The position numbers were made by a program, and so were the translations under genes. Positions 2,103 to 56,260 of a stretch of DNA of 64,000 nucleotides are shown piece by piece (position 1 is the first letter of the stretch; every line of letters begins with the position of its first letter). A model generated the notes under the pieces. It saw nothing but the letters and a program-made list of their open reading frames with translations, did not search any database and was not told the DNA's origin. The stretch is from Ianthella basta (Eukaryota; Porifera; Demospongiae; Verongiida; Ianthellidae), in assembly GCA_964019415.1 (NCBI GenBank), contig OZ025889.1, positions 4,571,870 through 4,635,869 on the forward strand, written 5' to 3'.

Positions 2103-5100
2103 TTATATATACTCATTCCCTTCGTACTTGTACTTGAACTGTAGGCTCTGGTGGAGGTCCCTTCCTTCTTTCAGAGGAGCCCCCAACATGGACGCCTGAG
2201 GGGACACACTGAGATCCTTCTCATTCCATTGCAGAAGAAGGGAAGGGTTGCTAAGGAATGCACTCCTCAGTTTGGTGAACTGTGGTCTCTCAGTGGCCTC
2301 AGGGTTCCTAATAGACAAGTAAGGAGAATTGTGTCTGTCAGTGAGTTTTGTAGAATGCATGAGTAGTCAACTACCACATACTGTACATGTGCAGATGTCA
2401 GTGAGATGATACTTTTATACTGACACTTACACTTCACTATATATAGAGAGTCTGCAATAATCATTTCACCAATTTGTTTGCTATACTACTGGGCTTCGAC
2501 ATCTTTAGCTGCTTGCTAAGGATGTTAATCGTTCATCCATCCCACAGTGTACACAACCAAAGAAAGAAAGCACACTATATATTATGGTAAAACTCTTGCA
2601 AAACAGAAAATGCACAAAGATATATACACATGAATGTAACTCCACATCTGTATGCATATCATGTGGACCTTAATTCCTGAATATTAAAATAAACTTCAGT
2701 GGTTTTGCAAATTGACAGCCATCCACAAATTTAGTCCTGCAAAATTTAGATCAGCACTTGAATGGTTCAACGAATGACATCCACAGTTGTGTGTAAATTG
2801 GCTACTGTGGTTTAGGGCACCATAAACACCGTGGGGAGCCGTGGCACTGAATCATCTCTGTGGTGACAATTTCCATCACCTTCTAGTACCCTCCACTCTG
2901 TGCATGTCGAATTAACCTGACTCTTACTCTCCTCTACACACACGACCAATCAAACTATGCTTCATTTCAGGACAGCAATATCAAAGCTATTTTCTCTGTT
3001 GCCTTGTCTGCCCTACCTTCATGTCTGCAGCTGAGAATCTGAGCCAAATGTGAATTAAGAATTATACAGGGCACAAGTATACAGAGTAGAGTGACATGGA
3101 AAGATGCCATTCAGTGCACAGTCCAGAAATGCTTCGTATCCATACATCCATCGTATCAGTAAGTATTCTTTTACAATGACCAGTTAAGATCTGCTTTTGC
3201 TGAGCAGCTATTGCTGCTTGTCACTTTAATCAACAATCATAATATCAAGTCAAAATACAATAATTACATTTAATTTACAACAAAAAGCGTACACTTGACA
3301 CAAATGTACACCTTAAACATGAGATCACTCACCAGCACTGAACCATTAAGAGGTAAGCCCCCCTTGGACATCCAGGGGGAGGAGGCAGACAAAATCCACT
3401 GGAAAGTACCTTCACAAACTGCAGGCACAGAAAAGAACAAGGATGTTCACATACTAGCATGGTGGTTACCACCAAATCTTGTGAAAAAGGCTGTGGGATA
3501 GTGACATGCTGCATATACTATAATTATACAATTATGGGTGTTTGTATGCAATACAAATGGTATGAAATGGCAAATATTAATAGTGCTTGGTCGGCTAGTG
3601 GTATGTATAAATATTGGCCTTATATATACTACAAATTTATGCACTACTGCCTATAGAGGCAGAATGTTAATGGCAAACATAACAATCTCTTCAAGTTCCC
3701 AAACTGACACATGAAACAAATGCATCCCATGACGTGGACTCAACATGGTGAACATAATGGCGCCTTTTGATGGAATCTTGTCTCCCACATCTCTCATGCA
3801 GGGTCAATCTGTTTATACTCCCTTTCCTTAAGTAATATACTACACTTTGACTATGGTAGGGCAATGCTATCAAAGGGAGTATAGGTTGCATTTAAATGCC
3901 AGTATCAGAGTTAGTTTGCAGACATGCATTCAGCTGTCTGTTCAGCATGTCTGCATAAATATACATTAATGCATGTAGTGCACATGGTCCAGGAATATTG
4001 CTTTCATTTCTCAATTACTCAATCAACATACACATGATGCAATGAACATTTAATTCTGAAGCACACCTCTTCAATTGATATATTCTCAAATGGCTTGTGC
4101 CCCAGTGACCATATCTCATACATCACCATCCCATAGCTCCACACATCACTCTTTGTGGTGTTCTTCCTGTACATAATGGCTTCAGGAGCCGTCCAGCAAA
4201 GAGGAATGCAGCCTCCAGTAATGCGATAGATGCAGTCATCAGATACATCTTGAGACATACCAAAATTAGAAATCTGTTAAATAAGGAAGGAAGGAGCAAT
4301 GAATTCGGGCCGTAACATCTCCTGTTGGTATTGCTGTGCTGTAATAGAACAAGACACATAAAATTGCTATTTACTCAAACAATTTATACAGTGATATGCA
4401 GTTATCACTATATTTCTGATCTAATATCTGTAGAAATGAGATTATTGACTTTGATTGAAATCGGAAAGTTCAGTATCTCCGGGCAATCTCATCTATTATG
4501 GTTGACCTTATCAATATCAAAGAATTCCTGTAAAATCACTGAGATACAACTTTAAGGTGCATATGGTCTGTTGTTTGCTACAAATGCTGCTCATCTGTAC
4601 ATGTTGTACATTGTCCTTGCAGTCATTACGGGCCCACTAAACACAGTCTTCAGTCATTCAGTGTTACACAGCCAGCTTAGGCACAATTTGTAGCAAAGGA
4701 TGCAGTAAGCTTGCAGAAGGGCAAAGCATTAATTAGCCAAGACATGTTCCGCACACACACACACACACACACACACACCTTGCAGTGCCACTCTTTGTCC
4801 AGTAGGATGTTCCTGGCAGCAAGATCACGATGAATGAAGCCTTTCTTTGAGAGGTAGCTCATCCCATCTGCTATCTCAAGACAGAACTGGAGCAGCTTCT
4901 TTGGGAGGTCAGGGTTTTTTGGAGAACTGCAGTAATACATGTTTGGCAGAACTGACATTATATTGTCAAAGCTACAGCACAACATAGTTCAAACTCATTT
5001 GTGGGAGTACAGGCTAAACGCGCCAATACTAATGCTTGCGCATGCAACATGCCATATGACATATATGGACAGACAAACACACATACGTATTTACACAGAA

Positions 5101-8100
5101 CTCGCACCATTCATTCAACTCCAGCAGATGTTCCCTCAGGTTTCCATTGGGAAGACACTCCATCACCATCATGTACTGGTGGAGAGGGCAGAGCCAATCA
5201 TCATAACTTTAACTGGATCTACGCAATTAGCAATATTGCAGCTGCAGAGCACAGGCAGTGGTTGTGTGGCACATCACAGCAGGTTTGCTGCCAGCTAGTG
5301 CAGTATCCAAGTGTCCATACAGTAACAATTAACATTTGGAGTTTTGCTAAGCAATGGTATTTGCAATTCACAAAGCAAGATTTTATTTAGCAAGAAATGG
5401 ATAATTGCAGAAATCAAAAAATGGGAATGAAATTACTTTCAATTGCAGAACACTTATACAAATTACTCATGTGTCTATACTAATGATAGAAATTTCAGCC
5501 TTGCCACATTCTTCAACAAGCTACATTATAAATAAAATAGGCTCACTGGTTCTCCCAGAGTGACCACTCCAAACAGCCGGACCACACGTGGGTGGAGGAA
5601 CTGACCCATCACTGCTGCCTCCTGGAGCAACTTCACCTTCTCACTGGGGTCCAACCCATCTTTGGACACTTTCACAGCCACCTCCACACAGCCCATGGGG
5701 GACTGCCACTCTCCTCTGTACACACTACCAAACTCACCCTCCCCAAGGGCCTCCCTACAGTGGACAGAACTACGGGGGAGCTCCTGGTACTTGTTCTGTG
5801 ACATCTGGGTATAGATCTCATCCTCAGTGGCACCAGGGTTCCAGTAGATGCTTTCTTCCTATAATAAAAGTTGCAATCAGCAAATATCATAGCTATACAA
5901 ATGAAGTTCTCCAGCCAGAACACTCAAGAACAAACACATGCATTCAAAGCCGCACAAAGAAGTTCTCCACCATTGCTAATAGTGTTACATTGTCTACATA
6001 GCCAGCCTCCCATGTTGCTTCTGAAACATCATGATTAAACAAGTATTTTGTTGTAAACACTTGGAGGGTACATTGCACAGCATGTATTCTGGGAATAATT
6101 GCTGCATTAGTATTAGTGCATCTCTATATACCTCCCTTGAGCAGGCTCATGTTCGATGGTTATGTATTGCACTTGGATTGCTAGTCTCACATTGACACTT
6201 ACCTGGTGTGTACATTCCGCATTCACTTTTAGATTGAGCGTATACTGACTGATTTAGTGATGGGGCAACTGATCTTGCATAATTTGTAGCTATGAAAATA
6301 AATGTGTTTTTGGCCAACAGGGATGCTTCTCAAGCACCCTGCCAGAAACAAGCTCAAGAAGACAGACTGGAATAGGACAACATTGCATCACTGTTGACAC
6401 TGTGAGGCTTAAACTGTGGCTGTTGAAAGCTGGAAAAGCTGTTCATAGTGTTCTTCAGCATGTCTAGGAACAGGAAATCAACTGCCAGTTAAGCTAGGTA
6501 GTGGAGAGGATATGGAAGAGGGAACATCGAGCAGAGTGTACATGTATGGCAGATGGTAGGAGAACAACTCTGGTGGATTGAGGGACAGAAAAGTGTTATA
6601 AGTTTTCTTCGATTGACCTAGCAGGTAAGCTCCAGGTGAGATATGCTTTAATCTCCTTTGCCATGCAAGTGAGAGGACAACATGTCCAGCTTCTACAATT
6701 ATCCTATATAATACGTCAATTAAGAAGGAATTGGATAATACTATGGTTTGTATACCATATCATAATAGTTATACAATATCCACCAAGTCCTGGACTCTTT
6801 AGATTAGCACCAGGCCTGTTAAACATGGTAGCCTCTAAAATATATTACATATCCCTGTAACATGAAGTGTTTATGGTTGAATGTCAGAATAAATCCATGT
6901 AAGAAACCATTCACCTCCAACAAATTCTTCTTTCTTGTTACAAGACATAATAGCACCCACCACAACATGCATACAGCCCCAGTCTCCCCCACCACCTTGT
7001 ACAACATACCTTAGTGGGTACTGGTACTAGAGAATACTCTGTGGACAGTAGTGGACTGCCATGCGCCACTGGGGTCTGTATAGGCACAAGGACAAATAAA
7101 CAGTTGTTGTTTCATATTATACAATAGCTAGCATACATGTAATATGCATGATACATGCTCAAAATGTTGTGTCTGAAATACATGTAGACTTTTATGGAGC
7201 TCACAACTCATACTATCTAAGGTATGAATTCTATAGAGTATAGAATAAGCACAAGAATGCTTACAGTAATAAATCCAGGTTTCTGCAGGGTTGGAATGGG
7301 CACACTTTCTTTAATGACATGCAGTTACAGGCTTTCATCAGTTGTTAGAACTGTTTTCCTATTCATCTATTTTACATGGTCAAGAAAATTCCCAATCTAA
7401 AAATAACCATCTACATCACAGCATAACATAAACACACAATGTACTGCTCCACGTATTCCAGGCTGTCATAGTAAGTTTCAACATCCTCATTTCCATCAAT
7501 AATAGTTGCTGCTGTGGGCTGGGTGTGGAGTAACCTGTCCCTCTGCCGCAGCTGATTGCTGTGATGTTCACCACCAGTGAAAGCTGTCACTGCAGGGGTC
7601 TGTACAGTGACATCCTCAAACAGGATGTCATCATAGATATCTCCCCCATTTGTCCTCCGGTTTAGGACAGCTAATGGCAAGTTGTGTACATCCCCTGGTG
7701 GTGCATTTGCAACACTATTAGAGGCACTGTTGACTTGGTTATTTTGCAAAGTGTTGGCAATGGCATGATCACCGTCTTGGCCTGTGGGTGTTGAAGACAT
7801 TGTGAGAACTATATACCTGAGCCAGTTCCCAGTCATTCCTATAGGCACTATCTTGACAAATCATGAGGAAGCACACATTACAATAATACTTACATGTTAC
7901 AGTGAGCAGTACCATTAAAATTTTACATTCAGAATCAATGCTCCACTAAACATGCCCACCGTGTACTCAGTCTGTTACATCTTTCCACACACCCTTAATA
8001 CTCCTAATGTACACATACAAACATTGCCCATCATGTATGTACCTTTCCTACTGCTGAGCTTTTTCTTAAACCTCACCACCCACAGTACAAGGACAATAAT

Positions 8101-56100: not shown

Positions 56101-56260
56101 ATGTGAGTAGACTCTACAGTCCTTGTGGCAATGACGGTCCGAAGCGTTCTCGCCGAATGGCTTGCTCGATACGGGTACAAGTACACTCACCTTGTGCAAT
56201 GCAGGCCCCGACGAAATAGACTACAAGGGACAGGAATAGGTGCTCTTTTGAGGCCGCCAT
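53155..56260 (-). CDS. receptor C: kinase-less receptor with tyrosine tail
   Basis: Exons: 56260-56191 signal peptide (MAASKEHLFLSLVVYFVG), 55820-55239 ectodomain, 54988-54752 stalk and helix, 54136-53832 tail, 53241-53155 terminal exon with TGA. The sum is 1281 nt, in frame, 426 aa. Ectodomain 24-217, helix about 250-275, tail with GYEMM, GYDFP, AYQTV, RYETLDYSTGY, AEYNVP, PPPPDY and C-terminal NEYAEVLQ. Nearly identical to receptor B at a constant offset of about 6,230 bases, introns included, so the duplication is recent. No tyrosine fits the strict ITIM pattern; YEMM fits the PI3-kinase SH2 pattern. Role as for receptor B. Splice donors are GTGAGT, GTAATC, GTGAGT and GTAAGT. Confidence 0.88.
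55094..55218. repeat. CA/GT microsatellite in receptor C intron 2
   Basis: Interrupted CA run in the 250-base intron after the ectodomain exon, as in A and B. Confidence 0.95.

Follow-up and report, generated by a model that had tools for sequence, protein, structure and literature searches.

By which receptors sponges recognise non-self as distinct from self, and deal with microbes, is an old open question. In vertebrates, the paired receptors KIR, LILR and SIRP carry similar ectodomains, of the immunoglobulin (Ig) or lectin type, on differing signalling tails, which contain an immunoreceptor tyrosine-based inhibitory motif (ITIM) or pair with adaptors carrying an immunoreceptor tyrosine-based activation motif (ITAM), and their genes are clustered and exchange sequence. 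Among early-branching animals, the allorecognition complex of Hydractinia is reported to contain 41 Alr genes (PMC11999971), and a receptor tyrosine kinase with an Ig-like ectodomain from the sponge Geodia cydonium has been placed in the context of immune evolution (cited in PMC12018476). Lineage-specific expansions of tyrosine kinases with shuffled ectodomains are furthermore described for sponges and choanoflagellates (PMC8662651). In this paper, we analyse a stretch of 64,000 nucleotides (the window) from the sponge Ianthella basta, positions 4571870-4635869 of contig OZ025889.1 (C22) in a 209 Mb assembly, in which six receptor genes place one ectodomain family on an intact kinase, an altered kinase or a kinase-less tail. 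A search of the open-licence literature by title and the start of the abstract found no paper describing this receptor array.

The six genes all lie on the minus strand of the window, and comprise three of kinase type, R1, R2 and R3 (RTK1, RTK2 and RTK3 of an earlier note on this DNA), and three kinase-less ones, A, B and C. Each can be assembled from a signal-peptide-like exon to a stop codon through GT-AG introns, and the span from the final base of the R1 stop (2103) to the initial base of the C ATG (56260) agrees with the six same-strand receptors that the earlier note had placed between these two positions. The predicted exons, in positions of the window, are the following.

13589..13676, minus strand: R1 signal-peptide-like exon, phase 1 donor
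11936..12553, minus strand: R1 ectodomain exon 1, phase 1-1
9358..9969, minus strand: R1 ectodomain exon 2, phase 1-1; protein 88% identical to exon 1
8043..8213, minus strand: R1 membrane exon, phase 1-1
7438..7781, minus strand: R1 juxtamembrane exon, phase 1-0
2103..5858, minus strand: R1 kinase exons K1-K6 (5858-5547, 5175-5108, 4926-4779, 4273-4067, 3418-3333, 2307-2103), NFG for DFG
19614..19683, minus strand: A signal-peptide-like exon
18662..19243, minus strand: A ectodomain exon of B/C type, phase 1-1
16536..16807, minus strand: A membrane exon and kinase-less X-type tail with stop
37148..37241, minus strand: R2 signal-peptide-like exon
34970..35581, minus strand: R2 ectodomain exon, phase 1-1
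34069..34251, minus strand: R2 membrane exon, phase 1-1
33491..33837, minus strand: R2 juxtamembrane exon, phase 1-0
29948..32556, minus strand: R2 K1-K6 (32556-32245, 31719-31652, 31500-31353, 31275-31069, 30909-30824, 30146-29948), catalytic motifs intact
46457..46541, minus strand: R3 signal-peptide-like exon
43806..44408, minus strand: R3 ectodomain exon, phase 1-1
43458..43670, minus strand: R3 membrane exon, phase 1-1
42873..43219, minus strand: R3 juxtamembrane exon, phase 1-0
39035..41641, minus strand: R3 K1-K6 (41641-41330, 40821-40754, 40602-40455, 40377-40171, 39959-39874, 39233-39035), catalytic motifs intact
49963..50032, minus strand: B signal-peptide-like exon
49011..49592, minus strand: B ectodomain exon, phase 1-1
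48543..48779, minus strand: B membrane exon, phase 1-1
47601..47917, minus strand: B tyrosine-rich tail without kinase
56191..56260, minus strand: C signal-peptide-like exon
55239..55820, minus strand: C ectodomain exon, phase 1-1
54752..54988, minus strand: C membrane exon, phase 1-1
53820..54136, minus strand: C tyrosine-rich tail without kinase

Gene models and junctions are predictions from genomic sequence, with signal peptides called from hydrophobicity and phase only, those of R3 and B by eye. R1 (952 residues, 11 exons), R2 (751 residues, 10 exons) and R3 (755 residues, 10 exons) have stop-free frames and GT-AG borders at all introns, and A has a full-length frame of 307 residues; B and C, whose frames were read exon by exon, come to about 401 residues each by summed exon lengths, their tail acceptor being one picked among several candidates. 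R1 has two ectodomain exons and the other five genes one each, and all seven begin and end in phase 1. The same holds for the membrane exon in each of the five genes where it stands as an exon of its own (R1, R2, R3, B and C). The statement that every ectodomain and membrane exon does so thus holds except for the membrane exon of A, which starts in phase 1 and ends in its own stop, and the modular architecture of phase-1 cassettes that had been proposed is supported by the splice phases and the GT-AG introns.

The ectodomain motifs listed in the earlier note align across the seven exons with 21 invariant columns, so that a family common to all six receptors is confirmed. None of the seven ectodomain frames matched a Pfam family at the cut-off; at E up to 1 there were three lone matches below it (IPK 0.18, DUF4442 0.29 and Sec62 0.095), with no Ig or C-type lectin family among them, and a search of the PDB by sequence found no family. 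Structure prediction, which had been proposed as a check, gave a model of a beta-sandwich resembling a jelly roll, and comparison of this predicted fold with the PDB returned weak matches only, jelly rolls among them, a list that leaves room for other folds. Likeness to PHR, CBM6, F5/8 discoidin, TNF and phage-fibre domains was not taken as a sign of kinship, the scores lying within the range of common arrangements. A scan of GTDB genomes with the B ectodomain as sole query found no relative. On these searches the ectodomain, which the earlier note could assign to no known domain, is an uncharacterised family and, by Pfam, one that falls outside the Ig superfamily. P0009, a protein record assigned to an alphaproteobacterial metagenome bin, is a fragment from the receptor family and is 98.8% identical to a copy in the sponge genome; this record is a probable case of host contamination in a public database.

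The inner ends of the receptors differ in kind. R2 and R3 keep VAVK, HRD and DFG, which bears out the full tyrosine kinases claimed for them, and with a signal-peptide-like exon, ectodomain, membrane span and complete kinase motifs they have the predicted architecture of receptor tyrosine kinases. Against PDB sequences the top row for the kinase was an EGFR entry (362 bits summed over two matched stretches), followed by Eph receptors at about 235 bits in one stretch and then by Abl. R1 keeps VAVK and HRD in an open K1-K6 frame, has NFG in place of DFG, and its activation-loop tyrosines are changed from YYY to CIY; by residue loss in an otherwise open frame it is probably a receptor pseudokinase with predicted loss of catalysis, which fits the suspicion that its kinase is dead. 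Searched across the genome, the DNA pattern for NFG has only two sites, in R1 and 17 kb from it, against 1 for the reversed pattern used as control; the DFG pattern has 34, against 0 for its control, and 10 of the 34 lie on C22 4.41-4.62 Mb. Among the K4 exons listed for C22 4.40-4.66 Mb, 16 in all, four match neither pattern exactly. The second NFG kinase has upstream of it an ectodomain that shares 85-90% identity with the two of R1. Since NFG stands in two neighbouring genes, the form seems to have persisted through a duplication.

A, B and C have no kinase. Tyrosines make up 11 of 105 tail residues in B and 10 of 105 in C, so these are the tyrosine-rich tails that had been described, and A does carry another tail, the X type, with 5 tyrosines in 89 residues. 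As consensus matches, VIYEDL in R2 and R3 and SLYESV in A are single candidate ITIM-like motifs, and TAYQTV in B and C is a single candidate motif resembling the immunoreceptor tyrosine-based switch motif (ITSM); R1 has none.

Exchange of exons among these genes can be followed at fourfold-degenerate sites. The kinase exons and introns of R2 and R3 align over 3.8 kb at 85.6% identity, and the kinases are 97% identical with a synonymous divergence (dS) of 0.06, whereas the ectodomains are 36% identical with a saturated dS of 2.7. Fourfold sites differ at 5 of 146 positions in the kinase versus 20 of 29 in the ectodomain (Fisher p=4.1e-15), and within the kinase the divergence of K1 does not differ from that of K2-K6 (p=1). 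R1 shows another pattern. Its ectodomains are nearer to that of R2 (55%), and its introns align to those of R2 and R3 in short pieces only, covering 0-13% of each intron. Its K1 has no fourfold difference among 47 sites to R2 and none among 47 to R3, compared with 11/25 and 11/29 in the juxtamembrane exon (p=1.5e-6 and 6e-6 against K1) and 17/85 and 16/86 in K2-K6 (p about 6e-4). Because low fourfold divergence in K1 alone hardly comes from selection on the protein, the simplest reading is a recent exchange limited to that exon. A is itself composite: its ectodomain is of B type, its tail of X type (69% to 58909-58367), and behind these a tail remnant of B type starts at 15662. B and C are 93% identical over 2.8 kb. 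By this comparison the receptor genes are mosaics of exchanged exons; the turnover suspected before is supported, and the exchange between genes is quantified.

The window is, from genome-wide exon searches, one end of a receptor array of about 0.9 Mb on C22. When the R3 K4 exon was searched against the genome, 150 of 784 candidates were scored, so that the counts are lower bounds; 144 of the 150 are at least 55% identical, with at least 63 of these 144 on C22 3.76-4.66 Mb and at least 51 on C15 0.71-1.19 Mb. The C15 copies form a further large array of the kinase exon, and another, with at least 10 scored copies, was seen at C8:7.84-7.92 Mb. The R3 juxtamembrane exon has 14 genome copies including itself, all on C22. 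With the ectodomains of R2, of B and of an exon 0.7 Mb away as queries, and exons counted by position, at least 53 distinct ectodomain exons were found on C22 and at least 17 on contig C5. The remote C22 ectodomain group compares weakly with the window family as single sequences and becomes convincing only once a profile is used (hhalign E=1.3e-8, probability 95.6); three C22 ectodomain exons are matched by both window and remote queries. An ectodomain-like exon of the C15 kinase array (L082 4664-5287), compared as a single sequence, was left out of the family, with an hhalign E of 0.005 and a probability of 7% against the window family and a weaker result against A4.

Of the 53 C22 ectodomain exons, 28 have a kinase as the next same-strand module within 9 kb, 12 have an A-type tail, two a B-type tail and four another ectodomain; seven have none. 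Among 17 matches to the A-type tail, nine have a stop reported within them, and the frames of A, L077, L078 and L079, the four such tails read in sequence, are open to a natural end. Stops flagged inside 26 of 144 kinase exons were rejected as a pseudogene count, as the query starts with three intronic residues and the R1 stop is intronic. Between two receptor kinases at C22:3.909 Mb, a reverse-transcriptase-like fragment was noticed by eye (L080 4032-4301, plus strand).

At four places on C5, a group of B-type ectodomain exons has a CARD-like exon 0.7-3.5 kb downstream on the same strand. Within this exon family, four of 19 members reach PF00619 with E values up to 1, the best being 1.8e-5; the CARD-like exon of L081 itself has no Pfam or PDB match, although relatives do. 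P0054 carries a precomputed PF00619 annotation, and the AlphaFold model of P0041 is all-helical with a predicted local distance difference test score (pLDDT) of 90.3. Judged by eye, the membrane and CARD exons of L081 are both phase 1-1, the ectodomain donor and CARD exon of L051 are in phase 1, and no membrane exon was recognised in L051 and L056. Among the copies listed, there is no separate CARD exon close to any of the other ectodomain exons of C5. The same ectodomain is thus probably joined to CARD on C5.

The ectodomain fits a pattern of variable loops on a conserved frame. Over the whole domain the ratio of nonsynonymous to synonymous differences (pN/pS) is 0.46-0.57 in four groups of close sequences. 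Columns 41-60 and 91-120 are more variable in the R3 and R2 groups (0.6-0.8), and one window close to the C-terminal end of the R2 group reaches 0.94. The R1 group of four sequences has 1.15 at columns 1-20 and 1.3 to 3.15 at columns 161-200, and in the B group, with three sequences, two windows stand at 1.55 and 1.68 while another three lack synonymous change. Diversifying selection was not established by windowed pN/pS in the four groups; close to the C-terminal end of the R1 group it is possible.

Broken intermediates, whose presence had been noted before, do occur in and around the six genes, and a scaffold gap interrupts one of them.

678..1123, minus strand: R0, a broken seventh receptor; R3-type ectodomain fragment 1123-989 abuts juxtamembrane exon 986-678 in another frame
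58646..58945, minus strand: orphan A-type membrane and tail piece (X)
15502..15662, minus strand: B/C-type tail remnant behind A, coding, with the chimera joint at about 15662
38080..38268 (C22:4609949-4610137), minus strand: broken B-type tail copy with two stops, between R2 and R3
8801..9000, no strand: 200-N scaffold gap in the R1 intron between the second ectodomain and membrane exons

The closest kinase exon match for R0 lies beyond the window at C22:4568932, and its ectodomain/juxtamembrane joint, within a few bases, looks deletion-like. The orphan X tail has no ectodomain match upstream within the window. The gap, the sole run of N in the window, has the same short sequence on both flanks, the opening bases of which recur at 11788; given this repeat, R1 may hold more than two ectodomain exons. 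Two mutually similar minus-strand open reading frames between the receptor genes (27451-27711 and 36400-36669) look like fragments of Penelope-type or LINE retroelements, and an integrase-like frame at the right edge of the window (62040-62684, minus strand) was recognised by eye, Pfam giving no match.

We consider it rather probable that the array encodes cassette-built single-pass receptors for recognition, with microbes or non-self tissue as the likeliest targets; our best guess is a role in immunity or self-recognition. From the architecture, recognition with a phosphotyrosine output is the most economical idea. By sequence, a one-exon phase-1 ectodomain precedes a phase-1 membrane exon and then an intact kinase, an NFG kinase or a kinase-less tyrosine tail, and exons pass between the genes by conversion or recombination, which keeps the kinase parts similar as the ectodomains move apart. 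Once the variable ectodomain binds its ligand, receptors would be drawn together, whereupon kinase members could phosphorylate themselves as well as the tyrosine-rich tails of partners that lack a kinase; phosphorylated tails would recruit SH2 or PTB adaptors, dead-kinase and tail-only members would tune or redirect the signal, and the CARD branch on the other contig might feed the same recognition into a death-fold pathway. The wider idea of a combinatorial locus, in which a single ectodomain family, non-Ig and varied through the exchange of exons, sits on active and dead kinases, tyrosine tails and CARDs and feeds both phosphotyrosine and death-fold signalling, we offer tentatively.

Several observations weigh against recognition. 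The linkage of R1 spans the scaffold gap. The CARD-like exon has at least 150 genome copies on many contigs (150 of 778 candidates scored), some with an internal TGA, which leaves strand, proximity and agreement in phase as the grounds for linking it to the ectodomain. A module lies within 5 kb downstream of 35 of the 53 C22 ectodomains, compared with a mean of 23.7 and a maximum of 37 in 2000 random placements; as random placement also gives many neighbours in a dense array, spacing alone is modest evidence. Six of the 12 A-type tails beside ectodomains have a stop inside the match, that of L079 being the natural tail end. The loops of the R3 and R2 groups peak at only about 0.6-0.9, and windows above 1 are confined to the R1 and B groups, with their four and three sequences, as raw ratios without a significance test. 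Finally, ordinary tandem duplication also yields such clusters, and pairwise ectodomain dN/dS is 0.2-0.9 for pairs more than 45% identical.

These last two points, together with the broken pieces, suit birth-and-death under purifying or relaxed selection, that is, a lineage-specific expansion of receptor kinases for development or for food or chemical sensing, with kinase-less and dead copies as by-products of duplication and decay; the stops in A-type matches suggest that some kinase-less tails may indeed be decayed. Such an expansion is possible, if doubtful. The kinase-less types recur, a tail being the next module for 14 of the 53 ectodomains, and the four tails read through are open; NFG stands in two neighbouring genes, set against 10 DFG among the 16 listed K4 exons, and the ectodomains diverge far more than the kinases. 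An allorecognition locus, in which ectodomains bind one another or a polymorphic self ligand as in the histocompatibility complexes of colonial invertebrates, would account for the clustering, the mosaic build, the kinase and kinase-less versions and the variable loops; we think it unlikely, as ectodomain sites are conserved on average and the size of the array is equally compatible with microbe sensing. That haplotype copies or misjoined repeats in the assembly produced much of the mosaic is very improbable, since, despite the repeat-flanked gap in R1 and near-identical copies such as B and C, the other five genes are gap-free, ectodomains have kinases or tails as neighbours at tens of places on C22, and a misjoin would hardly produce the exon-by-exon synonymous pattern.

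Taken as receptors for recognition, the array offers a concrete candidate for the sponge question raised at the outset, combining a domain that is non-Ig by Pfam with receptor kinases and partners lacking a kinase, and probably with CARD receptors as well, all built from the same cassettes. It also presents exon-by-exon homogenisation of kinases beside strongly diverging ectodomains within one window, where the breakpoints can be mapped. Like the Geodia cydonium protein, R2 and R3 are predicted receptor tyrosine kinases of a sponge; unlike it, with its Ig-like ectodomain, the family has no Pfam Ig match and a jelly-roll-like model, and forms clusters of tens of genes, in which kinase-less and dead-kinase forms occur as well. 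With the Alr genes of Hydractinia, whose ectodomains are V-set/I-set Ig-like and whose allelic polymorphism governs fusion or rejection, it shares a clustered receptor family in an early-branching animal and an ectodomain family common to many genes, but here the receptors include kinases and their recognition role is a predicted one. For the tyrosine kinases of PMC8662651, likewise lineage-specific families with shuffled ectodomains, we found no description of this ectodomain, of kinase-less partners or of exchange exon by exon. As in the vertebrate paired receptors, one ectodomain family is found on different signalling ends within one cluster; in the sponge, on the other hand, one of these ends is a tyrosine kinase, the ITIM- and ITSM-like matches are single motifs only, and the ectodomain is without an Ig or lectin match in Pfam.

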